Shown here piece after piece: positions 3,906 to 26,342 of a stretch of 64,000 bases of DNA; positions within the stretch are counted from its first letter, which is position 1, and every line of letters starts with the position of its first letter. The DNA is from Metallosphaera hakonensis JCM 8857 = DSM 7519. GTDB taxonomy: Archaea > Thermoproteota > Thermoprotei_A > Sulfolobales > Sulfolobaceae. A model generated the notes under the pieces. That model searched no databases. It was not told the DNA's origin and was given only the letters and a program-made list of their open reading frames with translations. The stretch spans positions 806,001 to 870,000 of the forward strand of contig NZ_CP029287.2 of assembly GCF_003201675.2 (NCBI RefSeq), written 5' to 3'. The translations under genes and the position numbers were made by a program.

Positions 3906-4352
3906 TTAGTATTTTCCGTAACATGACGATGTAGAGAGGTTCTAATCTCAAACCAACTTGTTCTAAGATTTAAAGATATATGTAAATCGCCTAGGAGGAA
4001 CGAAGGAATCTTCCCCTCTATAGATGCATAGAAAACCTGATTTAAGGGTCCAATATTAAAGCTATATCCATTAAACTCTGAAATTGAAGTCTATAACAAG
4101 ATAGTTTTCCTATGGAGTAGATCGTTACCATGCATGTATACTATCTTTCTCGTGAAGTTATACTTAGTCATAGTCTAAAGCGCAATGTAGCATCCAAGGT
4201 CACTCGATATATCAGAGAGGGTCATCTGCTCTTTAAAGTCTCAGGAAGTATAATACCATGTATTTATTGAAAATCTTGTAAGAGCTTGCAAATTCTTCTA
4301 TTAAAACTAATGTTCAGTTATCCATGCTAATAGCGTAATTTGGGAAAAAATA
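3906..4352. other. Intergenic region between divergent genes, no gene seen
   Basis: About 450 AT-rich bases between the binding-protein promoter and the next promoter. Stops interrupt all frames; I found no repeat of families A or B and no RNA gene. Confidence 0.6.
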
Positions 4353-4362
4353 TTTTTATAAT
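4353..4362 (+). promoter_or_regulatory. TATA box
   Basis: TTTTTATAAT preceded by an A-run (BRE-like), centred 24-25 bases before the ATG at 4381; leaderless geometry that also supports that start. Confidence 0.6.
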
Positions 4363-4380
4363 TAGTGATAATCTAGAGAC

Positions 4381-4752
4381 ATGAATAACGTATCTGCAAT
4401 GAACAAGTCATTGCGGTTAGTAGGGGGAATTCTGATGATCTTGTGGTCAGGTATTCATCTTTTTCTAGCTAAAGAATTGCTGAAGGTTCTCCCCGTAGTC
4501 GGAGAGTTCTTTGTGATAGATGCTGTACTAGTTATAATTGGTGCTCTCGTGATGTTCATGGGCTTTAGACTTCTTTACATTCCTGTTTTAGTTCTAAATT
4601 GGGCCAATTACCTCCTTTTGGCTGAGTCAAGGATATTCCCAGCTCCGGTTCTAGGATTCCCATTGCCTGCAATAAATAGCTTCGTTGTGGGAACTTTCTT
4701 TCTAGATATTATCATTATTGCCGTGAATACTGTTGTATTTGTTACCAAGTGA
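4381..4752 (+). CDS. Small membrane protein of unknown function
   Basis: 123 residues with four hydrophobic segments (about 10-30, 37-62, 63-80 and 98-120), little between them and a short charged N-terminus. No motif that I recognise. The promoter directly upstream and the clean start argue that it is a real gene. It stands alone, followed 170 bases later by an MFS gene with its own promoter. Function cannot be inferred. Confidence 0.75.
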   Translation: MNNVSAMNKSLRLVGGILMILWSGIHLFLAKELLKVLPVVGEFFVIDAVLVIIGALVMFMGFRLLYIPVLVLNWANYLLLAESRIFPAPVLGFPLPAINSFVVGTFFLDIIIIAVNTVVFVTK

Positions 4753-4854
4753 AAGGAGTCTCTATGATACTCTCTTATTTGGGTAATATGGGGTTGAGAA
4801 CTATTTAGCCACACTGTGGAGCGTCGTGTATGATAAACCTAATAAGCGATAAAC

Positions 4855-4880
4855 ATAATTTTATTTTCTTTTTCATTCCA
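4855..4880 (+). terminator. T-rich tract, possible terminator
   Basis: Several T runs about 110 bases after the stop of the small membrane protein gene; archaeal termination commonly occurs at such tracts. It could equally be part of the following promoter region. Confidence 0.35.
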
Positions 4881-4895
4881 CAATTTTGAAATTAA

Positions 4896-4905
4896 CTTTT
4901 TAAAT
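4896..4905 (+). promoter_or_regulatory. TATA box for MFS gene
   Basis: CTTTTTAAAT, centred 26 bases before the ATG at 4927; leaderless geometry. Confidence 0.6.
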
Positions 4906-4926
4906 TATAATGACTTTTCGTCAGAC

Positions 4927-6114
4927 ATGAGATCCAATTATATTGGAGCTTATCTCTCTTGGGTAATGGACTCCTACGATCTAGGAGCTGTAGTGATTAC
5001 GGCAACAATTCTGGAAAAGGTGTTCTACCCTACGCTGGGTCTATTAGGGGCTGTCTTACCTATTATTTTCACGGTGATCTCCAGACCGCTCGGCGGATTT
5101 CTTTTCGGGTTCTTTGCTGACTTAAAGGGCAGGAAGAAGGCTTTAGTGATAACTGTACTGGGTTATTCCTTATCCATTGGTCTTACGGGGCTTATCCCCC
5201 CATACGCTCAAATCGGAGTTTTAGCACCCTTAATAGTATCTTCGCTGAGAATAGTTCAAGGAATATTCATTGGCGGTGACGTATCCAGTTCCTTTACTCT
5301 TGCCATGGAGAGCGTATCCAAGTGGAGAGGGTTTTTGTCCGGAGTGATGCAATCTGGAACCCTCTTAGGTTTTGTGTTGGTTGATTTGTTATTCACCTCT
5401 CTTGCAAGAACACCAGGATTCTTCGTCTCTGGGTGGAGATACATCTTCTTCATTGGCGTTATCCCTGCAATATTAGCTCTAGTTATTAGGGTAAAGGTTA
5501 GCGAGCCGAAAATCTACGTTGAAGCGGAAAAGGGAAATCCCACTAGGGGGTTATCCCCACTATGGCAAACAATCTTGGTCATGATAGGTTTCTGGGTCAT
5601 GATCTATGCCGGACCTCAGTTCATTCCTGTTTACTTGGGGCAAGTTCTTCATCTCTCTCCTCAAACATACGGCTTCCTAGCTTTAATTATGAACGTCATA
5701 GGCATCCCTGCGATGATGATATCCGGCCTTCTATCGGACTTTTTGGGTCGGAAAACCATGGGTCTGGCAGGAGTTGTCATTGGTCTCATTACGGCCACTT
5801 GGTTCTACCTAGCAGGTTCGCCCACTATTGCCTCGTTGTCCGTTTTCGGATTTGGAATGAATCTGGCCTCAGCAATATCGCCCTCATATCTTGCTGAGAG
5901 GTTCAAGACGTTCAGTAGAGCCACAGGAGTTGGGTTCTCTTATAATGGGGCATTTATTGTAGCAGGATTTACTCAACTCTTCATATCTCAGCTCTCAGCT
6001 TTAACTTCGGTTTCTCATTCAGCAGTTATAATTCTTGGCATTGGAGCAGTGCTTGCGGGAGTTGGATTAGCAGTCGGACCTGAAACCCTAAAGGTCTCAG
6101 CTTTAAGCTCATAG
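4927..6114 (+). CDS. MFS transporter, metabolite:H+ symporter (MHS)-like
   Basis: 395 residues and about 12 membrane segments. The loop 2-3 motif reads [19 protein letters not shown], the form found in the MHS branch (citrate, alpha-ketoglutarate, proline/betaine symporters), and the equivalent in the second half is [11 protein letters not shown]. The N-terminal WVMDSYDL is also typical. It would act as a proton-coupled organic-acid or metabolite carrier in the cytoplasmic membrane. Single gene with its own leaderless promoter. Substrate unknown. Confidence 0.85.
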
Positions 6115-14557: not shown

Positions 14558-15499
14558 TCAGTATAGGAAGCATGCGACGTAGTGGTCACTGGAAACACCC
14601 GTCAAATCTGGTTCCTTCTCCTTACAGTGGGCCATTGCAAAGGGGCATCTTGGGTAGTATTTGCAACCCCTACCATTATAGGGTTCAGTATCCTCCTTAA
14701 CCTTCAGGGAGAAAAAGCTCGCTCTCCCAGACGGATCGGGTATGGGGACGGCTGAGATTAAAGCCTGAGTATAGGGATGGAGTGGTTTCTCAAGTAGCAC
14801 ATCTGCTGTCCCGTGTTCTATAACCTTACCTTGATACATTACGTAAATTCTGTCCGCTACGTAGCCCAAGGTAGAGATGTCGTGTGTAATCATCATTATT
14901 CCTATGCCCCTTTCATCCCTCAGTCTTTGAAATATCTCAAGGACTCCAGCCCTGATGGACATATCCAACATGGAGACAGGCTCGTCAGCTACTATAAACG
15001 ACGGATTGAGGACCAATGCCCGGGCGATGGCCACCCTTTGCAACTGCCCCCCTGAAAGTTGATTTGGAAGGGAGTTTGCGTACTCTTCCTCAGGGGTAAG
15101 CCCCACGTCTCTCAACGAATGAAGCACCATCTCCCTTTCCTGTTCCTTGTCCTTAGCTAAACCGTGAACCATAATTCCCTCAGCAACAATGTCGTATACC
15201 TTCAACCTTATGTCCACTGCTTCATATGGATTTTGATAGATTATCTGATTCTGACGTCTGAACTCTCTCTCCTGTTTTCCTTTCAGCTTTAATACGTCCT
15301 TTCCGTTCCATAGAACTTTCCCCGATTGAGGTCTTTGCAGATTTAGGATGGTTCTCCCAAGGGTAGTCTTCCCACTGCCTGATTCTCCCACAATTCCCAC
15401 GATCTCCCTATCCCTCACGCTCACGCTCACGCCGTCTAAGGCTTTAACTACCACGTCCCTAGACTTGAAATATACTCTAAGGTCTTTTGCCTCAATCAT
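14558..15499 (-). CDS. Peptide/oligosaccharide ABC transporter ATPase, OppF/DppF type
   Basis: 313 residues from the ATG at 15499, which overlaps the stop of the preceding ATPase gene as ATGA. Walker [10 protein letters not shown], signature LSGGQLQR, Walker [13 protein letters not shown], switch His in MITHD, and the C-terminal oligopeptide motif with Cys ([20 protein letters not shown]) typical of the OppD/OppF pair, which in some members binds an Fe-S cluster. It energises the permeases encoded upstream. Ends just before the membrane protein gene at 14538. Confidence 0.92.
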
Positions 15500-16488
15500 T
15501 TCCTGGTCACCGCGTGGCAAGCGACGTAGTGGAATCCCTCAATCCTGGAGAACTCAGGCTCTCTCTCCCTACAAATGGGCATGGCCAAGGGACATCTAGG
15601 TGCAAACCTGCAACCCTTCGGAGGGTTCTCAAGATCTGGCGGAAATCCAGGAATGGCCACAAGTTTCTTCTGCTTTCGTAACCTTAAATCAGGAATAGCC
15701 TTGATCAAGAGCTGGGTATAGGGGTGAAGAGGGTTACTGAACACCTTCTCAACGTCCCCGAACTCCACTAATTTCCCGGCATACATTATGGCAATGCTGT
15801 CGCTAACGTTGGCCAAAAGGGATAGATCGTGGGTTACGAACATCATACTGAACTTTCTGCTGTCCTGAAGAGATTTCATGAGTTCAATTATCTTGGCCTG
15901 GGTTATGACGTCTAGAGCGGTAGTTGCTTCATCAGAGACGATCATTGAGGGGTTGAGGAGGAGTGCCATAGCGATCACAACCCTCTGTCTCTGTCCACCT
16001 GAAAGTTCATGGGGGAACATATCGGCTTTCTCCTGGGGAACTCCCACGCTCTCTAAGGACTTATAGATTCTCTCTAAGGCCTCGGCTCTGGAGACGTCTT
16101 CATGAGCCTGAATGGTCTCCAACATTTGGTCCCTTACCTTATAGACTGGATCTAATACGTCCATGGAAGCCTGGGGAATGTAGGCTATGTCCTTCCAGAC
16201 GACCTCCTTCCTAAACATCTTCAGATCCATGTTTAAGATGTTTTGTCCCTTGAACTTAACTTCCCCAGATATAACCTGGGCATTCCTGGGCATTACCCTG
16301 AAAATTGTGGTAACTAAAGTGGATTTACCACATCCAGACTCCCCTGCCACTCCCAGAACCTTGGACCTGTCAAGGAATAGGGAAACGTCATCCACCGCCT
16401 TCACGAACCCAGTCTTGGTTTTATAGTAAGTTTTGAGGCTGTTGACCTCAAGGAGAGTGTCTGTGGATTCCTCAAACAACTCATTCAC
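15496..16488 (-). CDS. Peptide/oligosaccharide ABC transporter ATPase, OppD/DppD type
   Basis: 330 residues, GTG start at 16488 inside the end of the permease gene (8-base overlap). Walker [10 protein letters not shown], signature LSGGQRQR, Walker [13 protein letters not shown], switch His in FVTHD, and a C-terminal Cys-containing segment ([20 protein letters not shown]). Partner of the OppF-type ATPase. Tight overlaps across four genes show an operon with translational coupling. Confidence 0.92.
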
Positions 16489-17896
16489 CCCTTAACTTAT
16501 ATGGACTCAGCACGTCGAGCATTGCGGATCCAAAATAGTAAAACGCAGTACTCAACAAGATAATCCCAATGCCTGGAGGGAGAACCCACCACCATGCGAA
16601 ACCGTTAGCGAATGAGAGGTCATTGGTGGCGAAGCCCAGCATGTTACCCCATGTTGGGAAACCTATGATTCCTAGACCCAAGAAGTCCAATCCAGATTCG
16701 GCCAATATGACTCCAGGAACGTCGTAGGCTAACTGAGCGAACAGTATTCCCATCAAGTTGGGAACTATATGCCTAAAGAGTATTCTAAACTTTCCCTCTC
16801 CCAGTGCCCTTGATGCCTCAACAAAGGTTCTGTTCCTCAAGGTGAGAGTTTGCCCCCTAATGATCTTAGCAGTACCTGGCCATGATAATAACGAAATAAT
16901 TAGGAGTATTAGGACTGCCTTGTTTACGTTAACTATGGCTCCCGTTAGATCAAAGATTGATATTAGAACAATAAGTAAAGGAAGACCGGGTATGAGGAGG
17001 AAGAAGTCTGTGAAGGCGTTTAAAGCGAGATCCGTAAACCCACCGACGTATCCGGCTAGTAAACCTATGATGAGACCGATGCCAATAATTAACGCTGAAG
17101 CTACTAGGGATAGATATAGATCGAACCTAGCGCCATAAACAAACTCTGAGAACACGCTCGCTCCATTATCGTCAGTGCCGAGCCTACCATAGGCGTAACC
17201 TAGGGACGAATAATGGGGATTGGAGATGAGGAAGGTCTCAGGTGAATTCCCAGTATTATCAACGGAAAGGACCACGGTGTAAACCCCAGGTCTTGGCAAT
17301 AGGAGCTTGGGAAGCTCTATGGATGCAAGAGCTTGATCCTGGACAGGCAACGACTGAACGTAGGGTGAGTTGCTTGGATTTACGTTCTCCGTGGAAAACG
17401 TAATGTGGTTGAGTTTTCCGGGAGTGACACTAACTGACGGAGGGACAGGAATAGGGGATAGTTCCATGAGATCGTTTCCACCCATGAACAGGTTAACTTG
17501 GAAGTCGCTAGTTGAAGGGGGAACAAGATTGAAACTTAACAAAATGTTATATGGTGAACTCCAATTCCATTTTAAGGAATAAGTTACATTAACCTCGCTA
17601 TTTCCAGGTACCACGACCCTTAGATAGGTGGAGTTAAGTATGGTTATCCCGTTCCCATTACTTGTTGGTACTAACGTTATCCTGACGTTAGGGGGTAAAT
17701 CGTGGTATTGTGGGAAAATTGTTGCCCACGAAGGGACAGCGTAGGGCGCAGCTATGAACTGTTGTGACACTTGATAAGGGTTATTATAAGATGTTATGAC
17801 CGGGGCCAGAAGGGCTAATACGGCGAAGAAAAGGATGATAATAACAGAGAAGACGAAAGTCTTCCTGCTGATAAGATCACTTACTACCTTGTTCAT
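16481..17896 (-). CDS. Peptide/oligosaccharide ABC transporter permease, OppC/DppC type, with extracytoplasmic insert
   Basis: 471 residues, long for this family (about 290-300). TM1 at 14-32 is followed by a roughly 200-residue extracytoplasmic insertion (about 35-240) rich in beta-strand-like and N-x-S/T sequences, then five membrane segments with the EAA loop ([21 protein letters not shown]). The insertion is common in the archaeal OppC-like subunits and may interact with the binding protein. Start ATG overlaps the stop of the OppB-type gene by 4 bases (ATGA). Confidence 0.9.
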
Positions 17897-18897
17897 TCGT
17901 ATCTCACCCTAGGATCTATTAGAGGGTATATGAAGTCGAGTGCTAGTAAAATAATTACAGCGAATAGACTAATAATATAGAAGTCCCCCCCTAGAAGAGG
18001 AACGTCTAAATTCTCAGCTCCCGTCACCAAAAGCCTACCAAGGCCTGGAATGTTGAAAATGTCCTCTATGAACACAACACCCGCGAATAGAAACGCTATA
18101 TCAATTCCCACTCTGGTAACCACAGGAATTACAGCGTTCCTGGTTATGTGTTTGTAAAGTATCTTTCTTTCATCAATGCCCCTTGCCCTCAAGTAGTTGA
18201 CAAAGTTACTACCCATTAGCTCAATTCCGTTGTTCCTAAATAATATGTTCCTTACGCCATAACTTATTACCGTAATGAATAGGATCGGCAGGGTAAGAAA
18301 CTTCAGAAGGCTAACCCAATACGTGAAACCCACCAAAAGATGACCGTTAGAGGTCGTTATTGCCTCAGCAAGGTTCGTTGGAAATATTCTAAGATAAAAA
18401 CCAAAGAAGTAGAGTACAATCTCTCCTAACCAGAAGGCTGGGATGAAATAGGTCATGATAGAGGTGAAGCTGACTGCGGTGTCTCCTATCTTTCCCTGTC
18501 TTGAGATCGAATATAATCCCAGAACAAGGGCCAATATGGTGCTAAGTATTAAACTTGGTACAACCAGTAGGGCGGTGACTGGAAACCTTGCCTCAATCAG
18601 TGATATTACAGGTTGATCGTAATGCATGGAGATCCCCAGATGGAAAGTGAGAAGCGACTTAATGTAAACGAAGAACCTCTCATCTAGGGGAAGGTTCAAT
18701 CCAAACTGGTTATCAAGGGCTTGGACTAACTCGCTCCTTGGAAGACCCTTATAAGTCAGGGGAACGTAAAGTTCTGCTGGATTTATCCCGTATATTGTGG
18801 GTAGTACCTGAAATATAACGAAATTGAAGATAATTATTCCGAACAGTAGGGCCAGTCTCTCGGCTATTCTCTTCGCCAAATACTTTAAGAGGGCCAT
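17893..18897 (-). CDS. Peptide/oligosaccharide ABC transporter permease, OppB/DppB type
   Basis: 334 residues, about six membrane segments. N-terminal YLAKRIAERLALLFGIIIFN and the EAA loop LRARGIDERKILYKHITRNA are typical of OppB. First gene of the four-gene transport operon. A TATA-like TTTTTTAAAAAC lies about 45 bases upstream, with a perfect palindrome between it and the start. The cognate binding protein is probably the one at 20647-22926 on the opposite strand. Confidence 0.92.
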   Translation of the reverse strand: MALLKYLAKRIAERLALLFGIIIFNFVIFQVLPTIYGINPAELYVPLTYKGLPRSELVQALDNQFGLNLPLDERFFVYIKSLLTFHLGISMHYDQPVISLIEARFPVTALLVVPSLILSTILALVLGLYSISRQGKIGDTAVSFTSIMTYFIPAFWLGEIVLYFFGFYLRIFPTNLAEAITTSNGHLLVGFTYWVSLLKFLTLPILFITVISYGVRNILFRNNGIELMGSNFVNYLRARGIDERKILYKHITRNAVIPVVTRVGIDIAFLFAGVVFIEDIFNIPGLGRLLVTGAENLDVPLLGGDFYIISLFAVIILLALDFIYPLIDPRVRYE

Positions 18898-19204: not shown

Positions 19205-20359
19205 ATGAGTAAGAAAAGAAAAGACTCAGGGATGCGATTAACGAACGTGGCTCTTGTTGTTATTGCATTAGTAATTATTTTTGCTGGCGTCATCTTACTT
19301 CAGGTCCACTCTAATTCAACTACCCTTATCCTCGTAAAGGACGTAAGTTCCATAAACCAGATCGTTGAAGTGAATCCGAATACCATAGCTTTCGCAGGTT
19401 CCTATAACTCGGGTAACAGATCTTATGGAGTGGCAGGTTTGGTATTTATTCAAAATCACTCTTACGTCTTTTTCAATGTAAGCAATTATTTTATGAACGG
19501 CTCGATTTACACATTAGGTTATAATGGAACTACGTACCTTCTAGGAGGAGCAAGGTACGTACAATTAGGGAACAGTTCAGTCCTTGCACCTACGGCCATT
19601 TTACTTGAGGGTAACAGGGTTTATAATATCTCAGGTGAAATTCCGAACTTTTATGTACCTGGACAGATCTTCGCCGTAAGTTGGGAAAACGGATATTGGC
19701 TACTCGGTGGATCGTCCCTAGTTGTTGAACAGTCAAGCAAGTTCCAGGTCCCGTTTCTCCTCAAATTAACCACAAATATAACAGACATAACCAACAGGTT
19801 ACCCTCCTTCTTCTATACCCCGCTTAGTGTTGGGAGCGGAATATTCACTATTTCGTCTTACGGTAATAGTTCTTTCGTTGGGGGTACTCATTTATTTAAT
19901 TATACAATTGCGATATATAATGGAACCTCCTTTGTAAGTAGTGAAGACGATCTAGGAGCTGTAATTACATCAGTTAACACGCCCCTAGGTTGGTTATTTG
20001 GGGGGTTTAATTACTCTTTGACTGATACACAGATAACTACCACCCTACTGGGTCTCTATAACGAGTCCGGTATACATTTCATTAAGCTCAAGTATGAAGT
20101 CGGGGTAGTCAACTCCGTAGGATACGGAGACGGAAAGTATTTGGTATCACTAAGGGTTCCCGTAGTAAACAACTTCACTGGAATCTCGTCTGAAGAGGGA
20201 ATTATCCTCTCTGGCAATTCTCCCTACTCCTTGACCCAGGCCTATTCCAGGTTAAACACCACTGTTAACTCGATTTTAGACGTGGGCAGTATTATTGTTG
20301 GAGGGGGCTACATCTTTAGCGGTTCTGGGGAACAGGGAGCTATAATCGTGATAAAATGA
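19205..20359 (+). CDS. Membrane-anchored beta-propeller-like surface protein
   Basis: 384 residues. N-terminal anchor at about 13-33, then an extracytoplasmic part with a recurring strand ending in Gly-Gly: TYLLGGARY, YWLLGGSSL, SSFVGGTHL, GWLFGGFNY and SIIVGGGYIFSG, spaced by roughly 45-60 residues, like blades of a kelch-type propeller. Many N-x-S/T sequons. It is divergent from the opp-like operon and lies before the binding-protein gene, so it may be an accessory surface component of that transporter. No enzyme motif seen. Confidence 0.75.
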   Translation: MSKKRKDSGMRLTNVALVVIALVIIFAGVILLQVHSNSTTLILVKDVSSINQIVEVNPNTIAFAGSYNSGNRSYGVAGLVFIQNHSYVFFNVSNYFMNGSIYTLGYNGTTYLLGGARYVQLGNSSVLAPTAILLEGNRVYNISGEIPNFYVPGQIFAVSWENGYWLLGGSSLVVEQSSKFQVPFLLKLTTNITDITNRLPSFFYTPLSVGSGIFTISSYGNSSFVGGTHLFNYTIAIYNGTSFVSSEDDLGAVITSVNTPLGWLFGGFNYSLTDTQITTTLLGLYNESGIHFIKLKYEVGVVNSVGYGDGKYLVSLRVPVVNNFTGISSEEGIILSGNSPYSLTQAYSRLNTTVNSILDVGSIIVGGGYIFSGSGEQGAIIVIK

Positions 20360-20600
20360 ACAGAATATATGAGGGAAAAATCTCTTTTCATTGATTTTCC
20401 TGAACTCACTTTATTTCAGGATTTAGCGATGCAAAGTTTTGGGCTGGATAGAGTTAAAATCATAGTTCAGGAGGAAGACTCCTCATGCGACGAGACCATT
20501 TCATGGATCGTTTTATTAAGTTTGATTTCTAAAGAATAGGATTAGAATCTTTTAATTCTATTAAAAGAACTTCAGTAAGCTATTCGTGATTTATGAAAAA

Positions 20601-20646: not shown

Positions 20647-22926
20647 ATGAATAAATTGTTTATTTTAGTCGCTATATTTTTAGTATTTGCCATGATAATA
20701 TCAGTGCCAATTGAAGTTTCTGGCTTTGCAATAGCAAATTTCGACACACCTATCCTAACTCCTTCTCAAGCCATTTACAACGAGCCTTGGGTCGGTACTA
20801 TTGTATATACATATGCATATAGCACACATACGGACGAGTTCAACGCCCTCCTTGATGGCAAGGTCGACTTCATTACGTTAACTCATATATCAGAGATCAA
20901 CGAGCTAAAGACAGCCCCGTACAACAAAACCGCATTTCTGGCAGTAGCCCCACAGGAGAGCTTCGGTCAAGTAGTCTTCGCCTTCGGTAACAATCTAACC
21001 TCAAACCTCTATTTTAGATATGCAATAGCCTCTCTAATTAATCCACAGAACGTTACCTCCTACGTTCTGGATAATGGTGTGCTAGGCGTAGACGAGCCAT
21101 ACTTCGTTAACCCAAGCCTCTCTGTTTACAGCCAATGGTTCAACCCTCAGGTAGAGTCATACTATCAACAATATGAGTCATACAATCTCACTAGAGCGGT
21201 GATGTATCTGGAGGAAGTTCCAGGGGTAACCCATAAAAACGGCCAGTGGTATTATAACAATCAACCACTTAAGCTCACGTTTTACTACACCTATCCGCCA
21301 GAGACACTGAAGAGGTTCGCGTATCTACTCTCAGATTCTGCCGCTGCAATTAACCTATCCATAACTCCAGTGTCGGAGACCTTCGGGACGCTTATTACTC
21401 AAGCTACAACTCCGCCATTTAATGATTTCAACCTCACTACCTTCGGTTGGATTAGTTTGGGCCCCTTCCCTAACTCTTGGATGAACGGAATATACACTTC
21501 ACCTGGGAACGTTGGTGGTTTCTCTAACTCCACTGTTGATCAGGCACTACAGAACGCGTTAAATGCCCCAACTCTATCTCAAGAAATCAGCTACACGAAA
21601 GAGGCGGAATATCTATTACAGCAACAAGAGCCTTACGTGATCTACACTTGGAGCAACGCAATTCAGGCCGTATACTTGCCTGGATGGGCGAACTATATCT
21701 ACCTATCAAGTGGAACGCCCACATACGCTATCAATCTGCTGGATGTTCACCCAACTAATCAGGCATTAAATGGAACATTCATATTCTCATCCATCTCCAG
21801 CGATCTACCGAGGCACATAAATATATATGCTAGCGTTTCGTTATACGCTTTCAACACCTTAGATGACATGTATGATAGCTTGGGAATTTCCCCGTTCAAC
21901 AACCCAACTCAGGTGTTACCCTGGGTCGCCTCATCGTGGACTGTCCAGAAGCCCGTGACCATGACTCTTCCCAATGGCGACAAAATAGTTAACGGCTCAA
22001 TTATCACAGTGAACCTTGTTCATAACGATACATGGATAGACGGTGTTCCCCTAACTGCGTATGACGTGAACTTCACGGTCTGGTACTACGATCTTCCAGG
22101 AATGATGGGGACTAACACCTTTGACGGCGTTACTCTAAACTACACTTACCTCTCCAGCGAAGGCTTCATTAACACTGACCTCTTTGGTACAATTCCCTCT
22201 CTGATATGGACAAATGTTACCAACCCCTATCAGATCGTGTTCTATCTGAACTCCTCCTCATACGTTAATGAGTACTTGGTACTCACGGAGTATCCAATAA
22301 TGCCTGCCCATGCCATAGGTCCGGTTAACGTGGTAACCCTATATCACTCAACGTTGGCTCCTGAAATCTCGTCTGGACCATACATGTTCTCATCATTCAA
22401 CAGTGAGGCTAAGACAGTGAGCGTAACCTATAACCCATACTACTTTAGAATTAACCCCTTGATATTCCTACAGAACGTCACTGAAGGCAACCCAACCAAT
22501 TTCACAGCGAAATTCCAGTACTACACTTGGGACAATTCCACCTCTTCATTGGTGCCTAATCCAGTTAACGGAACAGCGGAAATGTGGCTAATGTATCTCA
22601 ACGTGTCAGGTGAGAGTTACGGAAACGCTACAATGCCTGTGCCCATGAAGATGACTTCACCTGGAACTTACGTGGGAACAGTTAACACAACTGGTTTGAA
22701 ACCTGGCATTTACGAGATAGTCAGTAAGGTAACTTGGGATAATGGAGCTAGAGAGCTGTTCAGCTACGGATCGCTAAACGTTACGCCTTCTAAGGTAGTT
22801 ACTCCAACTACTCCACCACCCTCAGTTACCACGTCATCCTCTACAACCACTTTAGAGGTAGTTGCTGGAGTAGTAGTTGCAATAGTAATAATAGCTGTCG
22901 TTGTAGCTGTAATTAGGAGAAGATAA
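20647..22926 (+). CDS. ABC transporter solute-binding protein, family 5-like, with halves in swapped order
   Basis: 759 residues from the ATG at 20647, which has a good ribosome-binding site; the frame reaches back to 20593. Signal or anchor segment at 3-24. Residues about 30-350 resemble the second half of family 5 proteins (FRYAIASLINPQNVTSYVL, later FNLTTFGWISLGPFPNSW). Residues about 385-600 resemble the first half (VLPWVASSW; NDTWIDGVPLTAYDVNF; SGPYMFSSFN). An Ig-like domain (about 605-725), a Thr/Pro-rich stalk and a C-terminal membrane helix (about 733-755, ending RRR) follow. It would sit on the cell surface and deliver peptides or oligosaccharides to the nearby opp-like permease. Rich in N-x-S/T sequons; looks strongly expressed. 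Confidence 0.88.
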   Translation: MNKLFILVAIFLVFAMIISVPIEVSGFAIANFDTPILTPSQAIYNEPWVGTIVYTYAYSTHTDEFNALLDGKVDFITLTHISEINELKTAPYNKTAFLAVAPQESFGQVVFAFGNNLTSNLYFRYAIASLINPQNVTSYVLDNGVLGVDEPYFVNPSLSVYSQWFNPQVESYYQQYESYNLTRAVMYLEEVPGVTHKNGQWYYNNQPLKLTFYYTYPPETLKRFAYLLSDSAAAINLSITPVSETFGTLITQATTPPFNDFNLTTFGWISLGPFPNSWMNGIYTSPGNVGGFSNSTVDQALQNALNAPTLSQEISYTKEAEYLLQQQEPYVIYTWSNAIQAVYLPGWANYIYLSSGTPTYAINLLDVHPTNQALNGTFIFSSISSDLPRHINIYASVSLYAFNTLDDMYDSLGISPFNNPTQVLPWVASSWTVQKPVTMTLPNGDKIVNGSIITVNLVHNDTWIDGVPLTAYDVNFTVWYYDLPGMMGTNTFDGVTLNYTYLSSEGFINTDLFGTIPSLIWTNVTNPYQIVFYLNSSSYVNEYLVLTEYPIMPAHAIGPVNVVTLYHSTLAPEISSGPYMFSSFNSEAKTVSVTYNPYYFRINPLIFLQNVTEGNPTNFTAKFQYYTWDNSTSSLVPNPVNGTAEMWLMYLNVSGESYGNATMPVPMKMTSPGTYVGTVNTTGLKPGIYEIVSKVTWDNGARELFSYGSLNVTPSKVVTPTTPPPSVTTSSSTTTLEVVAGVVVAIVIIAVVVAVIRRR

Positions 22927-22995: not shown

Positions 22996-24244
22996 GGGCG
23001 GCTCAGGAGTCCATTGCGAATTGTATTTTCTAGCTCTGAATTAGGCTTATCCAATGTACAAATTATTGGGTATATTTCGGATAAAGTGAGAGGAATGAAG
23101 AAGACTGTAATATTATTACAGTGATGAGAAAATAGGCCGATAGGTTGTAGTAGAGCGCTATGGCCCGCGCGAGCTGTAGTATCCTCCAGGGAGAGTGAAA
23201 CAACCCGAACCTCCTCCTCTCCAGGAGGGAGTTGAAGGACTCGACCAGGTTGTTGGACTTAAGCCACTTCCAGAGCTTCTTGTCGGCGATGAGGTAGCTT
23301 AGAAGAGTCGGGTTGGTCTCGGGCTTGATCTTGCCGAGCTCGGCTGACGAGGTGATCGCGTCTAAAGCCTCCCTTTCCTCCTTGGTCGCGCGACGCTTGA
23401 GGTGGACCAGGCAGCCCTGCCTCCCCACGTGAAGTTCAAGGAAGATCGCCCTGTCCAAGGCCTTGATCCCGTCAGCTACCACCAGGACGAAGCTGGTCTT
23501 CTTCCAGACCCTGACCAGGAGACTCCAATAGATGGCGTCCTCAGCCTCGCTTATGATGACCTCGAGGACCGCCCTCTTTCCCTCCCGGGTCACGCCCATA
23601 GCCACCAAGAGGACCGCCTTTCGTCCCTTGAGCTTCACGTACTTCCCGTCAACTATAACGTACTTGAAGTCGTTGCCCGTTTCAATCTCGGGCATCCAGA
23701 GCTTGGCGTTCAACTTACCTCCCTTCACTGAGTAGACCAACATTAGGGACGCGAAGACCTTCCTCTCCTCCCTTAACAGAGTCTCCTCGACCTGGGTCCT
23801 CACCCTCCCTTTACCGTAAAGCACTGGCAGCTTCACCGATATCCACTCCAACTCGTACTTCGTCTCCCTCCCCACCATCACGATCTTGAACCCCTTCAGG
23901 AACCTGTAGCTCGCGTAACCCTTCCTCTTGACCTCCTTACCCCTTTGGTAGTTGGGACTAATCCTCTCAGCTTCCTCCAAGGCCATCCTCTCGATCTCCT
24001 GGACCGGTTTGTTTAATAACTCATCGGGTAATATCTTGGGGACGAGCGTGAGGGATATCTTCCCAGGTCCCTCTACGAGCTCCCTAATCCGGACCCCGTA
24101 GAGGGTTACCTCGTTCACAGTTGATAGTTCCATGATATTACCTCATGCTCGTCCCCTATTAGTGTTACCGAAAATGTAGAATCAATTTCTACTATCTAAT
24201 TCTATAGAAATAAATTGAAATCGCAATGGACTCCTGAGCCGCCC
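22996..24244 (-). mobile_element. Complete IS256-family insertion sequence (1249 bp)
   Basis: Inverted ends starting GGGCGGCTCAGGAGTCCATT at both sides (22996 inward and 24244 inward; identical over 24 bp), one transposase gene inside, and a perfect 8 bp target duplication TGTGGGAG at 22988-22995 and 24245-24252. All three fit IS256, whose members duplicate 8-9 bp. Length is close to the 1.25 kb elements known in Sulfolobus. It inserted just beside a decayed family A miniature element. Intact open frame and perfect duplication suggest recent movement. Confidence 0.93.
23063..24133 (-). CDS. IS256-family (Mutator-type) transposase
   Basis: 356 residues. DDE triad visible as D162 (VIVDGKYVKL), D221 (VVADGIKAL) and E298 (NNLVESFNS); the CLVHLKRR segment near 241-248 matches the family's C-x2-H motif between the second D and the E. 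N-terminal half is the DNA-binding region. The ATG at 24133 is about 110 bases from the right end of the element. Intact over its full length. Confidence 0.92.
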   Translation of the reverse strand: MELSTVNEVTLYGVRIRELVEGPGKISLTLVPKILPDELLNKPVQEIERMALEEAERISPNYQRGKEVKRKGYASYRFLKGFKIVMVGRETKYELEWISVKLPVLYGKGRVRTQVEETLLREERKVFASLMLVYSVKGGKLNAKLWMPEIETGNDFKYVIVDGKYVKLKGRKAVLLVAMGVTREGKRAVLEVIISEAEDAIYWSLLVRVWKKTSFVLVVADGIKALDRAIFLELHVGRQGCLVHLKRRATKEEREALDAITSSAELGKIKPETNPTLLSYLIADKKLWKWLKSNNLVESFNSLLERRRFGLFHSPWRILQLARAIALYYNLSAYFLITVIILQSSSFLSLYPKYTQ

Positions 24245-24728: not shown

Positions 24729-26342
24729 CTAACCTTTACAATTCTTATCTAGAAATTCCACAACCCTTATCACTGAATCCATGAGATTTTCTCTTTTACT
24801 AAATCCATGACCCTCGTTCTCATAGATCTTATAATCAATCTTCCTTCCGAGTCTCTTCATTTCCTCTACCACCTGCAACGTTTCCTCTGCAGGACACCTG
24901 GGATCGTTCTCTCCAGCTAATATTAGGAGAGGGGCTTTTATTCTATCTAAGAAGAATATTGGTGACCTTTCCCTCAGAAGTGCCTCGTCGTTCCCAATCT
25001 TAACTTCATCGTATTGCCTCAGAACCTCTCTCTCCTTCTCTTTCTCAGTAAACCAATTCACGAATGGAACGACTGCAGCTGCAGAGCACCACATTTCAGG
25101 ATATTTTGTCACGGCCATCATGGTCAAGTATCCTCCGTAACTTGCGCCTGTGATAGCTATCTTTCCCACATCCAACACCTTTGCAGACTCTACCACGTCT
25201 CTTAGGTCGCCACCCCCTAGGTCCTTGTCATTCAGGTGATTGAACCTTCTTCCCCGTCCAGTAGATCCCCGGTAGTTGGGACATATAACCTTGAATCCTA
25301 CGTCAACGAGCATTTGAATTTCAGCCGAGTAACCGTTGAGACACTCGTAGTCAGGTCCTCCATGAATGTAAACAACCCCTCTACTTTCGTTACCTCTCTC
25401 GTAAAGGAGAGCATCTATCTCTTCACCTAGGGAGTTATATTTCACCGTCCTAGGTCTCACGAAATTTCCCTTCACCTCCTTCATGGAATCAGTGATTCTA
25501 TCTAGGGTTGCTGAGTATCTGAATAGGTCGGCGCTACTATCGAAAGTGGATGCAAGAAAGTACAGATCCCTATCTACCTTGAGGTCCCTTGCTACACCTT
25601 CGTGCATCAACGGTTTCCCGTCTATCACTGGAATTATATCTCCACGTATATCTACAGTATAAACGAGTTTGTCTTTCCACATTAGCGCTTCGTATTTGTC
25701 CTGGTCACTTGTTACAAGCCAGTTCACCGTGTGATCTCGAAGTGAGAGTTTACCAATATCCGAGAAGCCTCTATGATTACTTAGGAAAAGAAGCGAATCG
25801 CCCGTGAAGCATTGGGTCGAGCTTGGAGATTGCTCAGATTCGGGGTAGGATAAAACGAATTCCTCACCCGTCTTATTATCCACGAGAGTAATGTCGTCAT
25901 CGTAAATTCCAGAAGAGTATGCAACCCACCTTCCCCCAGGAGACACGCATATTCCCAACACGGGAAGTTTACCTTTGCTTACTTTGGTTATTTCTCCCCC
26001 GTCGTAGAGGTAGAGATGAATTGTCTCCTTATCTCGATTTGAGAGGAAATAGAACCTATCCTCCTTAAGGAAAACTGGATTCATGTTATCAAAACCGTCG
26101 GAGAGGATAGGGTGAGGAACGTCGTCAATTAAGTATATTGATCTCACCTCAGATCCGCCCTGGTCCGCCACAACGGCTAACCTCGATCCAATCCAGTGAA
26201 CCGATTCTGGTTCCTCTATCTCAACCTCCCCTACGCCATGAATGTGGACCCTGGGTCTGTCCTTAAGTATTACATATGCAATCCTCCCATCATTTATATC
26301 GAAGTCGAGGACGGGGGTATAATTCAGATATGAAAGGTTCAT
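24729..26342 (-). CDS. S9 family serine peptidase (acylaminoacyl-peptidase / prolyl oligopeptidase type)
   Basis: 537 residues. N-terminal beta-propeller (about 10-280; phrases such as FYFLSNRDKETIHLYLYDGG) and C-terminal alpha/beta hydrolase. Catalytic triad by motif: S401 in GASYGG, D480 in GENDPR, H512 in NEGHGF. Oxyanion-side motif YIHGGP lies upstream. It would cut short peptides or remove acylated N-terminal residues in the cytoplasm; no signal peptide. A ribosome-binding site AAGGAG precedes the ATG by five bases. Flanked by IS material on both sides yet complete. Confidence 0.92.
   Translation of the reverse strand: MNLSYLNYTPVLDFDINDGRIAYVILKDRPRVHIHGVGEVEIEEPESVHWIGSRLAVVADQGGSEVRSIYLIDDVPHPILSDGFDNMNPVFLKEDRFYFLSNRDKETIHLYLYDGGEITKVSKGKLPVLGICVSPGGRWVAYSSGIYDDDITLVDNKTGEEFVLSYPESEQSPSSTQCFTGDSLLFLSNHRGFSDIGKLSLRDHTVNWLVTSDQDKYEALMWKDKLVYTVDIRGDIIPVIDGKPLMHEGVARDLKVDRDLYFLASTFDSSADLFRYSATLDRITDSMKEVKGNFVRPRTVKYNSLGEEIDALLYERGNESRGVVYIHGGPDYECLNGYSAEIQMLVDVGFKVICPNYRGSTGRGRRFNHLNDKDLGGGDLRDVVESAKVLDVGKIAITGASYGGYLTMMAVTKYPEMWCSAAAVVPFVNWFTEKEKEREVLRQYDEVKIGNDEALLRERSPIFFLDRIKAPLLILAGENDPRCPAEETLQVVEEMKRLGRKIDYKIYENEGHGFSKRENLMDSVIRVVEFLDKNCKG

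Follow-up and report, generated by a model that had tools for sequence, protein, structure and literature searches.

The window, a stretch of 64,000 nucleotides of the Metallosphaera hakonensis genome, encodes an extracellular, circularly permuted family 5 binding protein of 759 residues (20647..22926, forward strand), in which the canonical C-terminal half of the family precedes the canonical N-terminal half. We hold with good confidence that this protein is a working, membrane-tethered receptor of an Opp/Dpp-type importer, that its permutation is ancient and probably came about by loss after duplication, and that it is coupled to an ectodomain of the permease OppC that probably docks it. The whole-domain profile SBP_bac_5 (PF00496) matches the receptor above its curated cut-off of 32.4 bits and over both halves, in an order that departs from the canonical N-to-C one and makes the protein a permuted variant: profile positions 148-365 match receptor residues 49-287 (Pfam; whole-protein E 5.3e-22), and positions 2-147 match the second half when it is scanned alone (Pfam; E 6.4e-11). 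Once the residues are rewritten in canonical order, the two stretches merge into a single contiguous match covering 2-365 of 368, which scores 98.1 bits against 78.9 bits as encoded. The exchange of halves within a family 5 protein, proposed in a preliminary description of this DNA, is confirmed by this alignment in both orders, and the permuted outcome also by dozens of relatives. The halves are complementary, present in one copy each, swapped, and joined through the old termini, as in natural circular permutants. The same swapped and merging match rules out a linear PF00496 match or a different family. An error of assembly or frame is likewise ruled out by the identical order in independent genomes; since orthologues of 77-90% identity in such genomes, several of them single-contig, keep the order, the swap is neither chance nor an assembly fault. 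The other two PF00496 genes of the genome show one colinear stretch each, and the 567-residue frame is also classed as linear by the half-profiles. In principle, a lone chain of odd order could swap halves with a second chain or pair with a neighbouring protein, but this is very improbable here, given that each half is single and complete in one chain, that the joint is short and that the chain, once put back in order, is matched by a single family profile over its full extent.

The layout of the protein, all on the forward strand, can be read from the N-terminus onwards. An in-frame ATG upstream, at 20593, would add 18 residues, and homologue alignments begin at 20647. Direct reading of the sequence gives a signal sequence at residues ~1-26 (20647..20724), and a hydrophobic N-terminus is present in 60 of the 69 frames of the permutation type termed P1, defined by the canonical C-half before the N-half with a single shared breakpoint. 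The canonical C-half, at residues ~46-366 (20782..21744), is delimited by the PF00496 match and by its half-profile. It is followed by the new joint between old C- and old N-terminus, bearing the motif LLDVHPTNQALNG (21745..21759); the linker proper amounts to a few residues, and a joint motif L(L/F)(D/N)xH...GG is shared by many P1 proteins (alignments A1 and A3). The canonical N-half then occupies residues ~372-604 (21760..22458; PF00496 2-147 and half-profile) and terminates in SGPYMF...NPYYF. Beyond it lie a beta-rich, possibly Ig-like domain with predicted strands at residues ~605-715 (22459..22791) and a Ser/Thr/Pro stalk with a C-terminal membrane helix at residues ~716-759 (22792..22923). 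The preliminary description had placed an Ig-like domain and a C-terminal anchor at this end. The anchor is plain from the sequence. For the Ig-like domain, a beta-rich segment of about 100 residues is plausible, with strands at pLDDT ~60-86 inside an otherwise poor AlphaFold model and weak MG2/CARDB/Big-type matches in the tails of relatives; a Pfam scan of the receptor's own tail gave no match. The AlphaFold runs, based on a shallow alignment of seven sequences, yielded poor models for the full length and for the core (pLDDT 38 and 35).

The P1 breakpoint is constant throughout, at PF00496 ~130-148. In the receptor of the window the break corresponds to a loop that follows the conserved N-P-x-Y strand and leads into the next strand-helix (PF00496 ~146-148), probably on lobe I, and the profile-to-PDB alignment (1dpp: profile positions 44-341 = residues 208-493) maps it near residue 205 of DppA. 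From the domain boundaries of DppA and OppA we take residue ~205 to be in a lobe I loop and both canonical termini to be on lobe I as well. With the break and both canonical termini on the same lobe, the rotation should spare lobe 2 and the hinge, and we infer from these sequence relationships that the cluster C fold would be kept. A short linker would join the old termini, the new C-terminus would bear the beta-rich domain, the stalk and the membrane helix, and the two lobes would still close on the ligand as a Venus flytrap before passing it to OppB-OppC. It could also be supposed that the rotation was favoured by anchoring, through a shift of the site where the core gives way to the stalk and the membrane helix. 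This reason was raised for TpMglB-2 (Tp0684) of Treponema pallidum, a naturally permuted, tethered glucose-binding protein of an ABC importer, by its authors (PMC4990184), and a C-terminal membrane helix is detectable in 49 of the 69 P1 frames. However, a terminal membrane helix is also found in 21 of 43 linear members, so the canonical topology tolerates an anchor, and the new and the old C-termini are both probably on lobe I. An advantage of anchoring is in our view rather unlikely, and tethering alone as the cause of the permutation is weakened by the linear members.

The gene neighbourhood is that of an Opp/Dpp-type importer, with two permeases and two ATPases encoded at 14558-18897 on the reverse strand: oppB (17893..18897; PF00528, E 2.2e-30), oppC (16481..17896; 471 residues; PF00528 and OppC_N), oppD (15496..16488; Walker and signature motifs by reading) and oppF (14558..15520; motifs by reading). 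The oppB, oppD and oppF genes are conserved neighbours. These genes are divergent to the adjacent receptor gene, and between them lies a forward-strand gene (19205..20359) for a membrane-anchored protein of 384 residues, a possible accessory that has no Pfam match and that keeps the same position in several Sulfolobaceae genera (L034, L037, L174-L176, L179). In Sulfolobales archaeon HS-7 the receptor and oppBCDF form a single co-directional run, and P1 genes usually have oppBCDF as neighbours, a context that recurs in many families. The conserved motifs, this context and the anchor make it most likely that the receptor is still a flytrap delivering to OppBC. Its ligands would be peptides or small oligomers; peptides are a guess, by analogy with the transporter family. 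Family 5 binding proteins also take nickel, heme and oligosaccharides. Two further genes lie near the importer on the reverse strand: directly downstream of the receptor, a transposase-like gene of IS256 style by eye (23063-24133), and a probable gene for an S9 prolyl oligopeptidase/acylaminoacyl peptidase, with the motif GASYGGY (24729-26342).

The permuted order is widespread. The survey of Sulfolobales homologues that the preliminary description had suggested found the same swapped order in most Sulfolobaceae genera examined, with P1 orthologues falling into two subgroups, one at 50-90% and the other at 30-37% identity; the relatives include Metallosphaera javensis (90%), M. yellowstonensis, Candidatus Aramenus and HS-7. 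A search across the order had hinted at an invention of the Sulfolobaceae only, which the phylum searches ruled out. A profile of the Sulfolobaceae P1 proteins matched more proteins outside the family, with several matches spanning the new joint, and half-profiles run on the retrieved reading frames placed the C-half ahead of the N-half in those outside Sulfolobaceae. A phylum-wide search with A3, a diverse set from which rebuilt half-profiles agree with the first ones, returned many further P1 proteins, so that over the retrieved loci P1 is counted in ~28 families of the phylum beyond Sulfolobaceae. As a control, family 5 proteins of related genomes and of bacterial plasmids test as linear with the same half-profiles. 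Four genomes of ammonia-oxidiser type, identified by archaeal AmoA, carry C-half-first receptors: those of G381 and G215 qualify as P1 by the half-profiles, and those of G448 and G306 have an N-half too divergent for the profile. These receptors (L122, L131, L121 and L130, respectively, in G381, G215, G448 and G306) are long, at 822-977 residues. No opp genes were found within the 16-18 kb examined around the receptors of G381, G306 and G448, which must then use a distant transporter or have another role. A tandem pair of P1 receptors occurs in genome G494 (L173, 6651-11490, forward strand), possible raw material for further rearrangement. The viral contigs searched held no relative of the receptor. 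Outside Thermoproteota the search for P1 covered plasmids, where the receptor of the window found no match and other P1 proteins gave two-piece matches; those retrieved were linear or belonged to a second permutation type.

This second type, P2, runs in L116-L120 from the late C-half through the N-half to the early C-half, with a break at ~PF00496 287. It was found at L116-L120, L138 and L161-L165, in Thermoproteota, haloarchaea and alphaproteobacteria, including plasmids of alphaproteobacteria (Nitratireductor, WP_206544944.1; Ketogulonicigenium; Roseomonas; Maritalea) and haloarchaea (Halalkalicoccus, Haladaptatus). Permease and ATPase genes adjoin the plasmid-borne P2 genes, and database records label the proteins merely 'ABC transporter substrate-binding protein'. 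At least two changes are required for P2 in the MAFFT-based tree, which suggests that this type may have arisen more than once. Searches of the PDB with L138 and with A3 gave no permuted chain among the best 60 matches listed of each.

The P1 order has a correlate in its permease partner. The OppC of the window reaches 471 residues through ~195 residues inserted between TM1 and the GTDDNG core (residues ~45-239; 17180..17764, reverse strand), as delimited by the alignment of inserts across P1 loci. The insert is beta-rich by reading and found no Pfam match; it is a probable extracellular beta domain. Across loci, the inserts align as a single domain, with A.YAxPxWxxxFP...LPP, then FxYxYxPP, then GxYTLxL...GxxYGLLGTD. 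A long-insert OppC (at least 200 residues) stands at 26 of the 27 P1 loci that have an OppC neighbour; the script counted 2 of 44 at linear or P2 loci (Fisher p 5.5e-16, a value overstated by the shared descent of the loci). Of these two, L206 is mis-assigned: the gene is linear, and the OppC closest to it is part of a P1 operon. At the other, L224, the OppC beside a P2 receptor carries an insert apparently unrelated to those of P1 loci. The fair count is therefore 26/27 for P1 against 1/43 for linear or P2 loci. The L224 OppC (4006-5775, reverse strand) carries a different insert of ~300 residues, beta-propeller-like by eye. In the reverse check, two additional long OppCs adjoin receptors that start with the C-half. 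The sole P1 exception is L208, an operon with a short OppC from which the insert is absent. This locus and the ammonia-oxidiser P1 proteins with no opp genes nearby indicate that the insert is not strictly required.

The receptor and its permease partner appear to have changed together, and the most economical reading of their pairing is that the OppC ectodomain probably docks the tethered receptor. A serious rival, to which we give a substantial but clearly minor share of our belief, is that a single neutral permutation took place in an operon in which OppC had beforehand, or acquired afterwards, an ectodomain for another job (e.g. S-layer contact), the two being co-inherited and physically uncoupled. 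P1 is nearly a single clade, so that co-inheritance alone could explain the association, and the insert-less L208 also speaks for this reading; yet the pairing is kept between receptors of 20-30% identity, holds in divergent and co-directional gene arrangements alike, and recurs in the second copies of two genomes. Docking and the order of events can be combined into a broader proposal, which we rate a little short of an even chance: a phylum-wide class of importers whose receptor was permuted first (compare L208) and whose permease then gained the docking ectodomain, a class that would reach the ammonia oxidisers, with a separate P2 class in haloarchaea and alphaproteobacteria.

At the evolutionary level, the P1 permutation would be old and would have occurred probably once, or nearly so, in Thermoproteota. 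In an IQ-TREE analysis with columns in canonical order, the P1 proteins form one side of a branch (support 99/96). The alignment behind this tree relied on profiles built from P1 proteins, and the tree was therefore repeated with other alignments. The MAFFT-based tree requires 2 changes for P1, the long-branched L209 straying, and is compatible with a single origin; FastTree on profiles from linear proteins did not recover the P1 clade. Taken from these sequence comparisons, a single origin of P1 is likely. L208 branches beside linear proteins in one tree and, being without the insert, would fit a permutation that came first and an OppC insert that came second. Regarding the mechanism, the preliminary description had offered circular permutation and tandem duplication with loss of the outer halves as two possibilities; these are outcome and usual route, not rivals. 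Duplication followed by loss is the usual route to circular permutation, and here the most likely course would be a duplication-fusion that then shed the outer halves, although no N-C-N-C intermediate was seen among the relatives examined.

Canonical family 5/cluster C proteins (AppA 1xoc, DppA 1dpp, NikA, OppA) show sequence homology to each of the two P1 halves (E 7.5e-65 for A3 against 1xoc) and share the operon partners of the P1 receptor. Among the matches listed, the related PDB chains all match linearly and none spans the new joint, whereas the P1 order is rotated; unlike canonical members, the P1 receptor has a beta-rich tail, a stalk and a C-terminal membrane helix, and its partner OppC is enlarged. 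TpMglB-2 and the P1 receptor are both natural circular permutations of tethered ABC-importer binding proteins, but TpMglB-2 belongs to the Type I/cluster B sugar-binding family and has another breakpoint. The P1 receptor matches PF00496 only, which sets it outside the TpMglB-2-like 'cluster Bc'; it is the same kind of event in separate families. OppA_Ss (SSO1273) of Saccharolobus solfataricus is described as a glycosylated oligopeptide-binding surface protein encoded with an ABC transporter and is proposed as a receptor for the virus ATV. It resembles the receptor of the window in being a Sulfolobales surface binding protein with ABC transporter genes, and it may be an orthologue.

Natural permutation is known for ABC binding proteins from TpMglB-2; for the peptide/nickel/oligosaccharide family, no description of permuted members was found in the literature searched, outside which most subscription papers fall. 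Standard linear models split many archaeal family 5 proteins in two, those of ammonia oxidisers included, and natural breakpoints become available for receptor engineering. The age of the permutation, its wide distribution and its link to an altered partner permease make it possible to test what purpose the rotation of a binding protein serves.
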